From Haloarchaeobius amylolyticus (GTDB lineage Archaea > Halobacteriota > Halobacteria > Halobacteriales > Natrialbaceae), in contig NZ_JANHDH010000002.1 of the NCBI RefSeq assembly GCF_026616195.1, forward strand, positions 620,001-684,000: a DNA stretch of 64,000 nucleotides, given 5' to 3'. Numbering within the stretch: the stretch's first letter is position 1; each line of letters starts with the position of its first letter. This document shows positions 14,145 to 56,985 of the stretch, one piece after another. The notes beneath the pieces are model-generated. The model saw only the letters and a program-made list of their open reading frames with translations, did not search any database and was not told the origin of the DNA. Made by a program: the position numbers and the translations under genes.

Positions 14145-14619
14145 CGACCAGCGTGACATTCGTCCCCTCCCAGTGGACGCGGGTGATCCGGATGCGGGCT
14201 GGCGCCTGCCGCCACGTCGCGTCGCGGGACTCCGTCCGCTCCCGAGCCTGCTCGACCGCGCGGGCGAACGCGACTGGCGAGTCGAACACGCTCGATGGCG
14301 GGTCGCCTGTCGCGACGCGCTGGAGCCGCGAGTCGGCCGCGACGGGAACGACCGGCCCGAACCCGAAGGTCGCGTGGGTCGTCCCGCCGGCGTTGCGGAG
14401 CGAGAGCCGGTGCGGGTCGAGTCGGACCGCGCTCGCGTCGACCGGATGCTCGGCGGTCGTGGGATACGAGGCAGCGGCGACCGCGTCGACGGTGTCGGCG
14501 GCCGCGGCCGCATCGGGCGCCGGTCTGGTCGGGAGTTCGACGGCGACGCCGGCGACGGCGAGGCTCGCCGCAGCGAGGCCGACCCAGCAGTACCACGCGT
14601 CTATCGGGAGGTCTGGCAT
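14137..14619 (-). CDS. Pilus-locus membrane protein (DUF7283-like)
   Basis: A 160-residue protein, first of the four-gene unit. Residues 7-27 (DAWYCWVGLAAASLAVAGVAV) form an N-terminal anchor, and the rest is an extracellular domain ending in TNVTLVDA. No catalytic residues are visible. Its start ATG lies exactly 30 nt downstream of the first base of a TATA-like box in the shared CCGCGGCCAG promoter, so the mRNA is probably leaderless. An 8-nt overlap joins it to the next gene. I recall the family as DUF7283, known only from pilus-type loci of Halobacteria. Confidence 0.75.
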   Translation of the reverse strand: MPDLPIDAWYCWVGLAAASLAVAGVAVELPTRPAPDAAAAADTVDAVAAASYPTTAEHPVDASAVRLDPHRLSLRNAGGTTHATFGFGPVVPVAADSRLQRVATGDPPSSVFDSPVAFARAVEQARERTESRDATWRQAPARIRITRVHWEGTNVTLVDA

Positions 14620-14649
14620 GCCGATGCTGGCCGCGGGTTCGTATTTGAA
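14620..14649 (-). promoter_or_regulatory. Shared-class promoter, pseudopilin unit (14619 start)
   Basis: On the minus strand, TTCAAATAC is followed by the block GAACCCGCGGCCAGC and six more bases before the ATG, 30 nt from box to start. The identical layout occurs at 18571-18600 and 19636-19665 in this locus, and in front of the three RNA genes at 27822, 39183 and 56955. This is a leaderless promoter with an extra conserved block between box and start. Confidence 0.75.
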
Positions 14650-16699: not shown

Positions 16700-18570
16700 C
16701 AGCACGGTCCCCCTGGCAGGTCGGCGGGCGCGGTCCGGCCGTCGGCGACCAGCCCGGCGATCTCGTCGGTTCGCTCCTGCAGCGCCCGGCGCACGTCGGC
16801 GTAGGACTCGGTCGGACCGGCGAGCCCGGCGACCAGCGAACTCTCGCCGCGGTCGATGCGGCCGGTCGGTTCGAGCGCCAGCCCGTCGAGGGCGAACAGG
16901 GGCGCGAAGTGGACGCCGTCGTCGCCGGAGCGGACCTCCTCGATGCGGGCGATTCGGCGCGCGGTTCCGGCATCGGATGCTGTCTCGACCGGGCGGCAGG
17001 TGACGACGAGGTCGGTGACGCCGAAGGAGGACTCGGGGACCCCGAGGTCGGCGACGACGCGTTCGCGCACGTCGGCCCCGCCGTCGCCGTGGATGGTTCC
17101 CAGGACCGCGCTCCCGCTCGCACCGACCCGCATCGCCTCGTAGAGCACGCGGGCCTCCTCCCCGCGGACCTCGCCGACGACGAGGGCACCCTCGCCGAGG
17201 CGGAGGGCGGTCCGGAGCGCCTCGTCGGGGGCGACGCTCGGGCCGTCCCCGGTCGTGGTGTGCAGCGCCTGCACGTCCCGGCCGCCGGTCTGGAGGGCTG
17301 CGACCGGGAGCTCCGGCGTGTCCTCGATGACGACGGTCCGGGTCTGACGCGGGAGCTCCCACAGCAGCGCCCCGAGGGTCGTGGTCTTGCCGGCCCCGCG
17401 GGTTCCGGCGACGAGCATCGCGGCCGCGCGCTCGACCGCCAGCGAGAGGAACGCGGCCGCCTCGGCGGTGAGGCTCCCGACCGTGACGAGCCGGGGGAGC
17501 GTCCAGGCGTCGCGGCCGTTCCGCCGGAAGGCGAACCCGTGGCCGTCGCTGACGGGGCGGGTCACGCCTGCCACCCGGACCGGGTCGCCCGCCATCTCGG
17601 CCGTGGCGTCGAGGGTCGGACTGGCGCGTGAGAAGGCGCGGCCGCTCTCCTGGCGGAACCGGGAGGCCAGTGCGCCCGCCGCGGCCGCGGTGAGCCGCAC
17701 GTTCGTCGGCATGGTGTGCCCGCCCGCGGTCACCCGGAGGGGCGTCTCCGTGACGGGCGCGGACGCGAAGACGTCGGAGACGGCCGGGTCCGCGAACAGG
17801 TCGGTGAGGACGCCGTACTCGCGGGTGTGCTTGCGGAGGACGGCCGCGAGGACCCCGACCGGCGTGGACTCGTCAGCGACCGCCCGGACCGCCCTGCCCG
17901 GGGCCCGCGCCGCCCCATCGGTGCCGCCGTCCGCGAGATGGGCGTAGGCGTCTGCGAGCGTCGCGAGGTCGTCGTCTTCCAGTCGGGATTCGACCGGTTC
18001 GAGGTGGTAGCATCGTCGCCCCGTCGCGTCCTCGTACTCGCGGACCGTCGTCCCCGTACAGGTCTCGCGCGTGGCGACGAGTGTGGCGCCCGGCGGGAGG
18101 TCGGTGGCGACCCGGGCCTTGCTGACGGTCGGGCCGGCGTACGGTCGCAGGGCCTCCTCGTACCCACCCGCCCGGTCCGCGAGGACGGCGAGGCCGGTCT
18201 CGGCGACGAGGTCGGCGACCGGTCCGGCCCGGGCCGTCGCGTCGGCCGCGGCCCGCAGGGGGTCGGTCCGGGTGCGCCCCGCCAGCACCGGGTCGTGGAA
18301 GGCCGTCGCGTCGGCGAACCGGCCCGCCGCGACCAGCAGGGCCGCGGCGTCGTCCTCGTAGGCCCGTTCCAGCCCCCCGTCCCTGACGACCACGCTGTCG
18401 GCGTCGCGCGATTCGAGGGCCTCGACCGCGGTCGCCCGGCAGTCCGGGTCGGTCGCGAGGTCGCCGCCGGGGCAGTCGGTCGCGTCGAGCGAGAGCCGGT
18501 CGCCCGCGAAGGAGACGGTGCAACCACAGGGGTCGTCGGAGTCGGTGCCGAGCAGCGAGCGCAGTGACAT
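16699..18570 (-). CDS. Type IV pilus assembly ATPase (PilB/TadA-like)
   Basis: A 623-residue secretion ATPase. Walker A is VAGTRGAGKTTTLGALL (about residue 395), the Asp box and Walker B are around VIEDTPELPVAALQ and ALVVGEVRGEEARVLYEAM, and the His box is the LGTIHGDGG stretch. The N-terminal ~200 residues include a Cys pair (CGCTV...CPGGD) and a region that reads as a degenerate duplicated domain. It supplies energy for assembling or secreting pilin-like proteins together with the platform protein downstream. The ATG at 18570 (SLRSLLGTD) is chosen: it lies 30 nt from the conserved promoter box. The 50 residues upstream are shadow sequence. Confidence 0.93.
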   Translation of the reverse strand: MSLRSLLGTDSDDPCGCTVSFAGDRLSLDATDCPGGDLATDPDCRATAVEALESRDADSVVVRDGGLERAYEDDAAALLVAAGRFADATAFHDPVLAGRTRTDPLRAAADATARAGPVADLVAETGLAVLADRAGGYEEALRPYAGPTVSKARVATDLPPGATLVATRETCTGTTVREYEDATGRRCYHLEPVESRLEDDDLATLADAYAHLADGGTDGAARAPGRAVRAVADESTPVGVLAAVLRKHTREYGVLTDLFADPAVSDVFASAPVTETPLRVTAGGHTMPTNVRLTAAAAGALASRFRQESGRAFSRASPTLDATAEMAGDPVRVAGVTRPVSDGHGFAFRRNGRDAWTLPRLVTVGSLTAEAAAFLSLAVERAAAMLVAGTRGAGKTTTLGALLWELPRQTRTVVIEDTPELPVAALQTGGRDVQALHTTTGDGPSVAPDEALRTALRLGEGALVVGEVRGEEARVLYEAMRVGASGSAVLGTIHGDGGADVRERVVADLGVPESSFGVTDLVVTCRPVETASDAGTARRIARIEEVRSGDDGVHFAPLFALDGLALEPTGRIDRGESSLVAGLAGPTESYADVRRALQERTDEIAGLVADGRTAPADLPGGPC

Positions 18571-18600
18571 GGCCACGCTGGCCGCGGGTTCGGATTTAAA
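18571..18600 (-). promoter_or_regulatory. Shared-class promoter, pilus ATPase unit
   Basis: TTTAAATCC on the minus strand, then GAACCCGCGGCCAGC, six bases, then the ATG at 18570. The spacing is 30 nt from the first T of the box to the start codon, identical to the other two pilus promoters and to the RNA gene promoters elsewhere in the window. Confidence 0.75.
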
Positions 18601-19135: not shown

Positions 19136-19635
19136 AGCACCTCGCGGATGCGGGCCACGAGCCCCGGTTCGTCCCGGCCGTCGTCCGGGTCCGGAATCGT
19201 GTAGGGGTCGTGGTCTGTGTCCCGCGAATGGCCGGGACTGGTCGCCCACTCGCCGGCGGCCGGTTCGCCCACATCGCTCTCGTGGGTTCTCGACCTCGCC
19301 TCCAGTTCCGCGACGCGCTCCTCCAGCGACTCGACCGCGGCCATCGCCCCGTCGGCGCGCTGCTCGACCCGTTCGTTCACGCTCCGGACGTTGCCGGCGT
19401 AGCCCCGGAGCGCCTGCACGGCGGCTTCGAGGTCGGCGACGGCGGTCTCCACCTCGTCGAGACGGTCCGCGAGCGTCGGCTGCTCGGGGGCGCTGCCGGT
19501 CGCGGGTTCGGTCGCTCCGGCCTCGAACCCGGTGTGCGTGGCACCGCCGTCGCCAGCAACCGCGTCGAGAACCGCGTCCTCGTCGGCGATGGCGCGCTCG
19601 ACCGCCCGCAGTCGGTCGTCCAGTTGGTCGGACAT
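19132..19635 (-). CDS. Coiled-coil pilus-locus protein (DUF7310-like)
   Basis: A 167-residue soluble protein with no membrane span. The middle (about 55-115) is coiled-coil: LADRLDEVETAVADLEAAVQALR... and VERLESLEERVAELEA-like heptads; the N terminus (SDQLDDRLRAVERAIADEDAVLDAV) is also helical. The C terminus is Asp/Pro-rich (DPDDGRDEPGLVARIREVL) and may bind a partner. I recall it as DUF7310, first gene of the pilus ATPase operon in Halobacteria. It starts at the ATG at 19635, 30 nt from the TTTAAATAC box. Likely a cytoplasmic scaffold or adaptor of the assembly machine; this is inference. Confidence 0.75.
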   Translation of the reverse strand: MSDQLDDRLRAVERAIADEDAVLDAVAGDGGATHTGFEAGATEPATGSAPEQPTLADRLDEVETAVADLEAAVQALRGYAGNVRSVNERVEQRADGAMAAVESLEERVAELEARSRTHESDVGEPAAGEWATSPGHSRDTDHDPYTIPDPDDGRDEPGLVARIREVL

Positions 19636-19665
19636 GTCGCGATTGGCCGCGGGTTCGTATTTAAA
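19636..19665 (-). promoter_or_regulatory. Shared-class promoter, coiled-coil pilus gene
   Basis: TTTAAATAC on the minus strand, then GAACCCGCGGCCAAT and six bases to the ATG. The palindromic core ATTTAAAT could also influence the divergent cetZ, whose own likely TATA box (CTTTACC, 19681) lies 30 nt before its start at 19712. Confidence 0.7.
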
Positions 19666-26851: not shown

Positions 26852-27796
26852 ATGGGTCTACTCATCGGTACACTGGACGGCCTCTTCCACGTCGGCGACG
26901 GGTTCGAGACCGTCGAACGGCCGCTCGAGGAGCGGGTCAACCGCCTCCACGTGTTCGGCGACGAGGCGCTCGCGGCGACCTCGGCCGGCCTCTATCACTC
27001 CGAGGGTGGGTGGGAGTGGACGAAGGTCGAATCGTTCGCCGGGCCGGTCCACTCGATGGCGACCACGCCCGACGGGGACTGCTGGTACGTCGGTATCTCG
27101 CCCGCGGCCGTGTACGTCTCCGAGGACGGCGGCGAGACGTGGACCGAGTCGGCGAGCTTCCAGAACCTCCCCTCTCGGGACCGCTGGCGGGACCGCGCGC
27201 CCGGGAACGACGCGACGGTCCGGACGATGGCCGTCCACAGTGGCGCGCCCGACCGCCTCGCGGTCGGGGTCGAACCCGGCGGCGTCTTCGTCAGCGTCGA
27301 CGGCGGCGCGACGTGGAACGAGCGCTGTGCGGGCGTCCACGACGACGTCCATCACCTGCTCGCGCTCGGGGTCGACGAGTACCTCGCGGCCACCGGCAAC
27401 GGCCTCTACGGGACCGACGACGCGGGCCGGACGTGGCTCCGGCAGGACACCGACTTCCGGGACTTCTGGTTCAACTACTTCCGGGAGACCGTCGCCCACG
27501 ACGGGACCCTGTACGCGGCCGCGAACGGCTGGGGCCCGGCGTCCCCCGGTGGCGCACTCTTCGAGGCGTCGGTCGACGGGACGGGTCGCGAGGCGACGCG
27601 GGTGCCCTACCCCGGCGAGAAGGAGTCGTTCGTCGTCTCCTGGGCGGTCGACGACGACCAGGTGTACGCGGGGACGATGCGCATCCAGGACGGATTCGAG
27701 CAGCACGCGCCGGGGCAGGTGCTCCGCCGGGAGGAACACGGCTGGATACAGGTCGGGGAGGTCCCCGCGGCAGCCCGGTCGCTCGCCACGATTTAA
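26852..27796 (+). CDS. Beta-propeller (BNR/sortilin-like repeat) protein
   Basis: A 314-residue protein with repeated Asp-box motifs: SEDGGETWTES, SVDGGATWNER, GTDDAGRTWLRQ (about residues 90, 150 and 190), spaced by strand-rich blades (HSMATTPDGDCWYVGISP; HLLALGVDEYLAATGNGLYG). No signal peptide, so it is cytoplasmic, and no catalytic residues are identified. Similar haloarchaeal proteins are called glycosyl hydrolase-like or BNR repeat proteins but have no shown activity. Its TAA stop overlaps the promoter of the RNA element downstream (ATT TAA ATC). Start ATG at 26852, preceded by GTTAACATA. Confidence 0.85.
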   Translation: MGLLIGTLDGLFHVGDGFETVERPLEERVNRLHVFGDEALAATSAGLYHSEGGWEWTKVESFAGPVHSMATTPDGDCWYVGISPAAVYVSEDGGETWTESASFQNLPSRDRWRDRAPGNDATVRTMAVHSGAPDRLAVGVEPGGVFVSVDGGATWNERCAGVHDDVHHLLALGVDEYLAATGNGLYGTDDAGRTWLRQDTDFRDFWFNYFRETVAHDGTLYAAANGWGPASPGGALFEASVDGTGREATRVPYPGEKESFVVSWAVDDDQVYAGTMRIQDGFEQHAPGQVLRREEHGWIQVGEVPAAARSLATI

Positions 27797-27821
27797 ATCC
27801 GAAGCCGCGGCCAGCTCCCCC
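27792..27821 (+). promoter_or_regulatory. Shared-class promoter of RNA element A
   Basis: TTTAAATCC followed by GAAGCCGCGGCCAGC and six bases leads to GTG at 27822, exactly 30 nt from the first T. The box contains the TAA stop of the propeller gene. The layout matches the pilus promoters at 14620, 18571 and 19636 and those of RNA elements B and C. Confidence 0.7.
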
Positions 27822-27918
27822 GTGCGCTGACGACCTGCCCGGCCACAGACGCGGGTGTGCGACACGCTGTGGGCCGGGACCGAGCACGACCGACCCCGGT
27901 CGCGTGTCGCCTGTTCGC
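27822..27918 (+). ncRNA. Putative structured RNA, copy A (start-X-stop and pseudoknot)
   Basis: A 97-nt element. It opens GTG CGC TGA (a start codon, one codon and a stop) exactly 30 nt from a TATA-like box. Stem 1 pairs CCCGGCCACAG (27838-27848) with CTGTGGGCCGGG (27867-27878), 11 pairs with one bulged G. In its loop, GCGACACG (27859-27866) is complementary to CGTGTCGC (27903-27910), an H-type pseudoknot. A small extra hairpin, CGACCG/CGGTCG with ACCC loop, lies between (27887-27902). CTGTTCGC starts at 27911, directly after the second strand. The same order occurs in copies B and C. It precedes nreA in the same orientation by 49 nt, so it might be a leader as well. Confidence 0.72.
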
Positions 27919-27967
27919 CACGGCGATGACTGAACATTGATGAGCGTCAGGGACGTACGGCAACCGA

Positions 27968-39102: not shown

Positions 39103-39103
39103 G

Positions 39104-39183
39104 GCGAACAGACGGTACGGGAGTCCACACGCCGGCGTACCGTACAACCGCGGAACCGGGCGTGTGGCGGGTGGTCAGGGCAT
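39104..39183 (-). ncRNA. Putative structured RNA, copy C (start-X-stop and pseudoknot)
   Basis: An 80-nt element on the minus strand. It opens ATG CCC TGA (39183-39175). Stem 1 pairs CCACACGCC (39167-39159) with GGCGTGTGG (39133-39125), 9 perfect pairs. Its loop begins with CGGTTCCGCGGTTGT, then ACGGTACG (39143-39136), complementary over 8 bases to CGTACCGT (39119-39112). CTGTTCGC begins immediately at 39111. The order, loop text and ending match copies A and B. It fills the gap between the halocyanin gene (ending 39235) and the glycerate kinase stop (39102), convergent with the latter. Confidence 0.75.
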
Positions 39184-39213
39184 GCACCGTCTGGCCGCGC
39201 GCTCGGTCTTGAA
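39184..39213 (-). promoter_or_regulatory. Shared-class promoter of RNA element C
   Basis: TTCAAGACC, then GAGCGCGCGGCCAGA, then six bases lead to ATG at 39183, 30 nt from the first T. This copy is the most divergent in the block, with CGCGGCCAG kept. It stands 22 nt after the halocyanin stop. Confidence 0.65.
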
Positions 39214-55964: not shown

Positions 55965-56878
55965 ACGGCGAACTCGTCCCGGCCGAGGACGCGAGCGTCA
56001 GCGTCCGCGACCGGGGGTTCCAGTACGGCGATGCAGCGTTCGAGACGATGCGGGCCTACGGCGGCGACGTGTTCGAGTGGGCGGCACACGCCGACCGGTT
56101 GCGCCGCTCCTGCGAGACGCTCGGGTTCGAACACGGGTTCTCCGACGGGGAACTCCGCGCTCGCATCGACGAGACGCTCGCGGCGAACGACCTCGACGAC
56201 GCCTACGTCAAGCTCTCGGTGACCCGCGGTGTCCAGCCGGGGACGCTGGCACCGAAACCCGAGGTCGACCCGACCGTCGTCGTCATCGTCAAACCGCTCC
56301 CGCGGGGCGGGAAGGGAAGCGAGCCCGTCTGGGACGGGCCGGCCACGCTCCAGACGACGAAGACACGCAAACCGCCGGCGAACGCGCTCCCACCGGGCGC
56401 GAAGACCCACAACTACCTGAACGGCATCCTCGCCCGGAACGAGCTGGTCGAGGACGCCGACGAGGCCCTGCTCCGCGACCAGGAGGGTAACGTCTGCGAG
56501 GGCGCGACGAGCAACCTCTTCTTCGTCAACGACCACGGCCTGCACACCCCGAGTGCAGAGCTGCCGCTCCTGCCGGGCATCACCCGGAAGGTGGTCCTCG
56601 AACTCGCCGACGAGGAGGGTATCCCGGTGTGGCAGGACCGCTACGCGCTGGAGGACGTGCGGACCGCCGACGAGGCGTTCCTGACGAACTCGACGTGGGA
56701 GCTCCGGCCGGTGGCGACGGTCGACGGGCTGGACGTGGGTGGTGGGCCCGTCACCGACCTGCTCCGGAGCAAGTTCGCGGCACTCGTCGAGCGTCGCCAC
56801 TACGATGGTGAACGACTGGCGGCCGGAGCCGGGACACCCACGGGGTCGGGAGCCGAAGGTTCGAAGGACCCAGAATAG
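55949..56878 (+). CDS. pabC: Aminodeoxychorismate lyase-type class IV aminotransferase
   Basis: A 309-residue PLP enzyme of the BCAT/ADCL fold. [34 protein letters not shown] (about 1-35) is the typical N terminus. LPPGAKTHNYLNGILARNELVEDAD holds the Schiff-base Lys (about 152), and VCEGATSNLFFVND (about 185) and LPGITRKVVLELA follow. By position it turns 4-amino-4-deoxychorismate into p-aminobenzoate; the fold also allows D- or branched-chain aminotransferase activity. Start ATG at 55949. Its stop codon's last base (56878) coincides with the 3' end of antisense RNA element B. Confidence 0.88.
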   Translation: MRYHVDGELVPAEDASVSVRDRGFQYGDAAFETMRAYGGDVFEWAAHADRLRRSCETLGFEHGFSDGELRARIDETLAANDLDDAYVKLSVTRGVQPGTLAPKPEVDPTVVVIVKPLPRGGKGSEPVWDGPATLQTTKTRKPPANALPPGAKTHNYLNGILARNELVEDADEALLRDQEGNVCEGATSNLFFVNDHGLHTPSAELPLLPGITRKVVLELADEEGIPVWQDRYALEDVRTADEAFLTNSTWELRPVATVDGLDVGGGPVTDLLRSKFAALVERRHYDGERLAAGAGTPTGSGAEGSKDPE

Positions 56879-56955
56879 CGAACAGGCGACGCGATTTCGA
56901 GACCACGCGCGGGGGCGTCGCGCAACCGCGGACCGGGCGTGGCGGCTCAGTGCAC
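56878..56955 (-). ncRNA. Putative structured RNA, copy B (start-X-stop and pseudoknot)
   Basis: A 78-nt element on the minus strand. It opens GTG CAC TGA (56955-56947). Stem 1 pairs CCACGC (56942-56937) with GCGTGG (56908-56903), 6 pairs plus a flanking G-U. The loop holds CCGGTCCGCGGTTGC, nearly the loop of copy C, then GCGACGC (56921-56915), complementary over 7 bases to GCGTCGC (56892-56886). CTGTTCGC begins at 56885, directly after. It fills the gap between the convergent pabC and the saccharopine dehydrogenase-like gene, ending antisense on the last base of the pabC stop. Confidence 0.72.
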
Positions 56956-56985
56956 GCCGACGCTGGCCGCGGCTTCCTATGTGAA
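56956..56985 (-). promoter_or_regulatory. Shared-class promoter of RNA element B
   Basis: TTCACATAG (a weaker box), then GAAGCCGCGGCCAGC and six bases, to GTG at 56955, again 30 nt. It lies six bases after the stop of the minus-strand gene at 56992. Confidence 0.65.

Follow-up and report, generated by a model that had tools for sequence, protein, structure and literature searches.

A putative family of haloarchaeal pseudoknot RNAs that begin with start-stop triplets

Introduction

Two-codon minigenes, in which a start codon and a single further codon are followed by a stop, are known from bacteria and phages, lambda bar being one of them. Another example is found in axe-txe (PMC8708949). In haloarchaea, the CreT RNA of CreTA (Haloarcula hispanica, Halobacterium hubeiense) is a small RNA with a 5′ mini-ORF that ends in UGA and is followed by a stable structure; CreT is sometimes leaderless (PMC8501985). 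Abundant intergenic RNAs of 72–111 nt, namely rancRNA_s194, Hts4 and IG1.7 (PMC6104027) and sRNA_61 (PMC12482152), are on record for Haloferax volcanii. In the same organism, 72% of protein-coding transcripts are leaderless, and 6–9% of the leaderless ones start with GUG (PMC4983044). By analogy, haloarchaea, where leaderless transcription is common, are the right setting for an RNA that would either engage ribosomes at its 5′ end or be shielded from them there.

We report here on putative RNA genes of this kind, three of which (copies A, B and C) lie in the window, i.e., in the whole 64,000-nt stretch of Haloarchaeobius amylolyticus DNA that was analysed.

Results

A predicted pseudoknot is present in three copies in the window

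A sequence-only reading of the window had claimed that copy A forms a pseudoknot and that the same topology is made from different sequences in copies B and C. Both helices of copy A were found as claimed: in P2 (stem 1), CCCGGCCACAG forms 11 pairs with CTGTGGGCCGGG, with one bulged G, and in P1 (stem 2), GCGACACG and CGTGTCGC match at all eight positions. Judged by its complementarity, copy A (27838-27910, plus strand) is an H-type pseudoknot. Copies B and C also carry the stems attributed to them (Table 1) and are the same element, but their RNA is on the minus strand, so they had been described upside down relative to A. When A, B and C are all read in the orientation of A, promoter, 5′ leader, both helices, loop and tail align. 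Beyond the pseudoknot itself, the earlier reading contained neither the size of the family nor the strand on which B and C are encoded, and it missed both the promoter and the start-stop triplets.

Table 1. Positions in the window of the features of copies A, B and C and of promoter-only matches
Feature	Position	Strand	Remarks
TATA box, copy A (TTTAAAT)	27792-27798	+	first base 30 nt upstream of predicted transcription start
Remaining conserved promoter, copy A, including GAAGCCGCGGCCAGC	27799-27821	+	also precedes leaderless protein genes
Predicted RNA, copy A (98 nt)	27822-27919	+	ends inferred from conservation; model match 27792-27919
Leaderless two-codon ORF, copy A (GTG CGC TGA)	27822-27830	+	RTG-NNN-stop
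P2 5′ arm (stem 1), copy A	27838-27848	+	from pairing and P2 arm comparisons
Loop L1, copy A, conserved core GCGGGTGT	27849-27858	+	GCGG and a later G nearly invariant (155 copies)
P1 5′ arm (stem 2), copy A	27859-27866	+	from pairing and P1 covariation
P2 3′ arm, copy A	27867-27878	+	from pairing and P2 arm comparisons
P1 3′ arm, copy A	27903-27910	+	from pairing and P1 covariation
Conserved tail, copy A (CTGTTCGCC)	27911-27919	+	exact in 90/157 copies, others mostly with 1-2 changes
Promoter and predicted RNA, copy C	39103-39213 (RNA 39183-39103)	-	begins ATG CCC TGA
Arms, copy C	P1 39143-39136 / 39119-39112; P2 39167-39159 / 39133-39125	-
Promoter and predicted RNA, copy B	56877-56985 (RNA 56955-56877)	-	begins GTG CAC TGA
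Arms, copy B	P1 56921-56915 / 56892-56886; P2 56942-56937 / 56908-56903	-
Promoter-only matches (CCGCGGCCA)	14542-14649; 19585-19665; 18566-18600	-	RNA body absent; TATA-to-start stretch 30 nt upstream of the ATG of leaderless protein genes

A crude search for 9-bp plus 8-bp crossing helices without a bulge produced 3 matches in 20 simulated 64-kb sequences. Since simulated sequence is also matched, a single isolated pseudoknot is not compelling; the family is. With a covariance model trained on 12 copies, A, B and C were matched at E = 2e-24, 2.1e-29 and 2.5e-25, respectively; all three belong to the training set of the model, and other copies do not. The minimum-energy fold of copy A, calculated with a program that is unable to represent pseudoknots, is nested and differs from the pseudoknot, which we count against our best explanation.

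Covariation supports two crossing helices

Loss of complementarity in stem 2 of homologues would have refuted the proposed pseudoknot. In 79 distinct copies from other genomes, 98.2% of P1 cells are paired and double-sided changes occur at each of the seven pairs, which bears out the claim of compensating changes. The P1 covariation score was 0.587 compared to 0.204 for shuffled alignments, with none of 500 shuffles reaching the observed value, and slid controls scored far lower. P1 is part of the model with which these copies were aligned, so the alignment is biased towards it; when only sequence anchors were used, 6.56 of 7 pairs were Watson-Crick, versus 4.59 with swapped arms. P2 is more variable (188 of 209 arms are distinct) yet still paired, its own arms pairing much better than foreign ones. 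The test for an H-type pseudoknot, two crossing helices each supported by covariation, is thus met by P1 and P2. The existence of the two helices, P2 of ca. 10 bp and P1 of ca. 7 bp, is established by sequence comparison; their simultaneous folding into an H-type pseudoknot is inferred. Leader, loop and tail were also examined for additional covariation, without a convincing third helix emerging. The p-values are rough, since the copies, whether from one genome or from related ones, are not independent of each other.

Mismatches in P2 point to the transcribed strand. There are 57 G-T/T-G and only 2 A-C/C-A mismatches when scoring is orientation-neutral (190 and 11, respectively, with wobble scoring), and therefore the RNA is the plus strand of the window for A and the minus strand for B and C. 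The same count in P1 is neutral (6 to 6). A 3′-UTR element on the opposite strand is ruled out by the G-U count.

Family size and distribution

In the source genome, the covariance model retrieved 36 copies at E <= 8.4e-13; after a gap, the next matches (E of ca. 6e-6) correspond to protein-gene promoters. At least about 30 copies are present in each genome sampled from the source genus, and other genera of its taxonomic family have fewer per genome. Within the order, matches at E <= 1e-7 were found in 136 of 243 genomes, which represent 41 of the 78 genera sampled, named carriers including Halolamina, Halomarina, Haloarcula pellucida, Halobellus, Halorarius, Halobaculum and Haloarchaeobius. 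Among 247 genomes sampled across the phylum, 24 had matches, and none of these lies outside the order. About half of the genera are without the RNA, which must therefore be dispensable, and this too counts against our best explanation.

None of the 4227 families of Rfam 15 matched the window at the gathering threshold, and a relaxed E-value yielded only chance-level hits over copy A. Copies A and B had no match in a plasmid collection, and the search of viral contigs returned a single pattern match (12.7 bits) that we judged to be due to chance. No earlier account of the family was found in open-access text. It thus appears to be undescribed, and a description elsewhere is possible.

Copy A has kept its locus in each of the five other species of the genus that were sampled. 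Its RNA has the same two flanking genes in G001-G004 and adjoins a BNR-type gene in G005. Across the six species P1 is intact throughout, and P2 is rewritten and still paired in four of the other five, with two mismatches in G001 (read by eye). The best match to copy A elsewhere in its own genome is 79% over 66 nt. Copy B has a 92% identical match in G005, and copy L107 has both neighbours in common with a copy of Haloarchaeobius sp. FL176.

These data also bear on whether the copies are remains of a small, MITE-like mobile element whose arms are structured merely by descent. Copies are dispersed, as such remains would be, and two genera differ as to the side of one gene on which the RNA is found. 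This origin nevertheless appears very unlikely, since sequence-divergent copies retain both helices through compensation, copy A occupies one place in six species, and all 36 copies of the source genome lie on contigs C1 and C2, with none on C3-C6. No recent, identical copies whose sites are empty in close relatives were seen; such copies would have argued for a mobile element.

Promoter and neighbouring genes

Each copy has the same predicted layout: a TTTAAAT-like box at -30, the conserved GAAGCCGCGGCCAGC, the predicted +1 position and an RNA of ca. 80-100 nt with CTGTTCGCC at its 3′ end. In 225 aligned copies, T is present at -30 in 93% and A at -27 in 80%. A likeness of the tail to the A-loop of 23S rRNA is probably due to chance, since in this organism it extends to just 8 of the 9 letters and no partner strand for the hairpin is present.

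According to gene calls made with a simple script rather than with a published gene finder, 120 of 164 copies face a convergent downstream gene at a median gap of 26 nt, and the other 44 are followed by a codirectional one (median gap 72 nt). Given the promoter stretch of its own, the mostly convergent neighbours and a codirectional gap that leaves room for another promoter, each copy looks like a stand-alone small RNA gene with a TATA-type promoter, transcription being inferred in the absence of expression data. Neighbouring genes are unrelated housekeeping genes with no common function. In several genomes (loci L123, L125, L126, L129 and L132), the RNA lies between two adjacent moeA-like genes, on the opposite strand. 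Near gene L147_U1, the RNA is on one side in genus g1 and on the other side and opposite strand in g47 (probably Haloarcula), the gene order being the same (L118, L119, L121 and L147 versus L175, L184, L216, L257 and others); either local relocation or independent gain may have caused this switch.

The prevalence of convergent neighbours, at a median distance of only 26 nt, would suit antisense regulation, in which the RNA overlaps the 3′ untranslated region of the facing gene. We consider this unlikely: the downstream gene is codirectional in 44 copies, the neighbours share no function, and antisense action gives no reason for the conservation of fold, loop and tail. Copy A, which is flanked by protein genes on both sides, could instead be taken for a cis-acting leader or riboswitch, because nreA begins 48 nt downstream on the same strand. 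A leader should have a codirectional gene behind it in most copies, which is the case in the minority only, and in G005 the RNA is ca. 1.3 kb from nreA. As a general role, a leader function is largely refuted, and we regard it as hardly tenable for the family. The extra DNA between RNA and nreA in G005 was noted at L362 and L367 (G005:C1:1453341-1455605).

Start-stop triplets at the predicted 5′ end

The predicted RNA opens with RTG-NNN-stop in 226 of 242 distinct copies. The first codon is GTG in 185, ATG in 45, ATC in 8 and something else in four (GTC in one of them); ATC, the commonest exception, is one mismatch from AUG. The third codon is TGA in 223 copies, TAA in 10, TAG in 3 and a sense codon in about 5, one further row being a script misalignment. 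Where TGA has been lost, it is replaced by TAA or TAG in 13 of 19 cases; the transition to TAA occurred 10 times and the equally easy change to TGG never. Compared to random neighbours, this bias has a p between ca. 1e-6 and 3e-3, according to how strong a transition bias is assumed, and without correction for relatedness. Stops one or two bases off register amount to 0-0.4%. The middle codon is mostly NNC. G is rare at its first position, despite the abundance of GNC codons in these genomes.

Some features of the 5′ end do not fit. Position +6 is strongly C, beyond what coding alone explains, and the four-to-one excess of GTG over ATG is the opposite of what efficient initiation prefers; both count against our best explanation. 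In addition, RTG is missing from about 11 copies, most of which retain the stop; something other than a start-stop function may therefore maintain part of the motif.

From +1 to the first base of P2 there are 15-17 nt in 129 of 157 copies. This is roughly where mRNA emerges from the cover of a ribosome that holds the start codon in its P site.

The start-stop triplets have two main interpretations. In the one that we prefer, described in the Discussion, the triplets are used to engage ribosomes. The main rival retains all of the anatomy and holds that the RNA is a structured stand-alone molecule whose loop and tail bind an unknown protein or RNA: a leaderless-type promoter would lead to translation from the 5′ RTG, and the immediate stop would merely shield the fold from ribosomes. 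Ordinary leaderless protein genes are indeed driven by the same promoter stretch at the same spacing, 30 nt upstream of the start codon, the weaker start GTG is preferred, and loop GCGGKTGY and tail CTGTTCGCC are conserved to the same degree as the 5′ triplets. On the other hand, the cheapest remedy for harmful translation would be loss of RTG, which is retained in ca. 95%, and the distance to the knot, 15-17 nt, is more narrowly set than insulation would require. Shielding remains a serious, if doubtful, possibility.

It can also be asked whether the copies are CreT-like toxic minigene RNAs, whose mini-ORF sequesters a tRNA; as outlined above, CreT RNAs are likewise small haloarchaeal RNAs that can be leaderless and combine a mini-ORF with a stable stem (PMC8501985). 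The test for consecutive rare codons was not met, since there is a single common codon, mostly ACC or CGC, in place of paired rare ones. Leaderless CreT is inactivated by a change of AUG to GUG (PMC8501985), the start that most copies have, and it is unlikely that one genome would carry 36 toxin genes with no antitoxin. CreT is further characterised by an adjacent CRISPR-derived antitoxin, creA; both flanks of copy A carry protein genes. The codons, the start codon and the copy number make a toxin role quite improbable.

Discussion

The anatomy of the family, i.e., the predicted pseudoknot, the conserved promoter-like sequence, the loop, the tail and the start-stop triplets, is well supported by comparison of the copies. 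Transcript ends, expression, ribosome binding, resistance to translocation and any regulatory role are inferences without expression data behind them. Our preferred reading, to which we assign a probability of about 0.45, is that these RNAs form an undescribed family of haloarchaea whose members engage ribosomes by means of a leaderless two-codon ORF, with the pseudoknot resisting read-through. Transcription would start at the first base of the start codon, and ribosomes would bind this codon as they do on leaderless mRNAs of haloarchaea. Once the start codon occupies the P site, the pseudoknot would be placed at the leading edge of the ribosome and would resist translocation, and the immediate stop would terminate any translation, keeping the knot folded. 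Preference for the weaker start GTG may make the engagement mild, and the conserved loop and tail probably bind a shared partner. The RNA would then act as a ribosome-engaging regulator, either a decoy or a parking RNA. Only tentatively, and with somewhat lower confidence, do we extend this to a new class of ribosome-engaging RNAs, in which dispersed leaderless two-codon minigenes, closed by a pseudoknot at ribosome distance, regulate translation or park ribosomes.

The family, with up to 36 genes per genome, is found in half of the sampled haloarchaeal genera and is seemingly unnamed. If ribosomes use the 5′ start-stop, it would represent a leaderless minigene of two codons that occurs naturally and has become fixed as an RNA gene, and would provide a simple system for studying 70S initiation on leaderless RNA, the encounter with a pseudoknot and termination.

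The family may also supply candidate identities for abundant untranslated ribosome-associated RNAs of Haloferax, an identity that is neither shown nor excluded. Of these, s194 and Hts4 (PMC6104027) and sRNA_61 (PMC12482152) are ribosome-associated and of a length that suits the pseudoknot RNAs; the available text mentions no pseudoknot, start-stop or multi-copy family for s194, Hts4, IG1.7 or sRNA_61 (PMC6104027, PMC12482152). H-type pseudoknots of frameshift signals and small riboswitches have the same crossing-helix topology, and in frameshift signals the knot likewise lies shortly downstream of the decoded codons. The RNAs described here differ from both in that they have no slippery site and no long ORF and are stand-alone genes, not leaders. 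Bacterial and phage two-codon minigenes, for example that in axe-txe (PMC8708949), share the succession of start codon, one codon and stop, but they are leadered, reside in mRNAs or operons without a conserved pseudoknot and are not a dispersed family of RNA genes. The ORF of CreT has six codons, two of them rare, whereas the pseudoknot RNAs have one common codon; leaderless CreT requires AUG, in contrast to the predominant GTG here; and CreT has a simple stem and a single CRISPR-repressed locus instead of a pseudoknot and up to 36 dispersed copies (PMC8501985). CreT is thus the nearest known system in build, from which the pseudoknot RNAs are set apart by codons, start codon and copy number.
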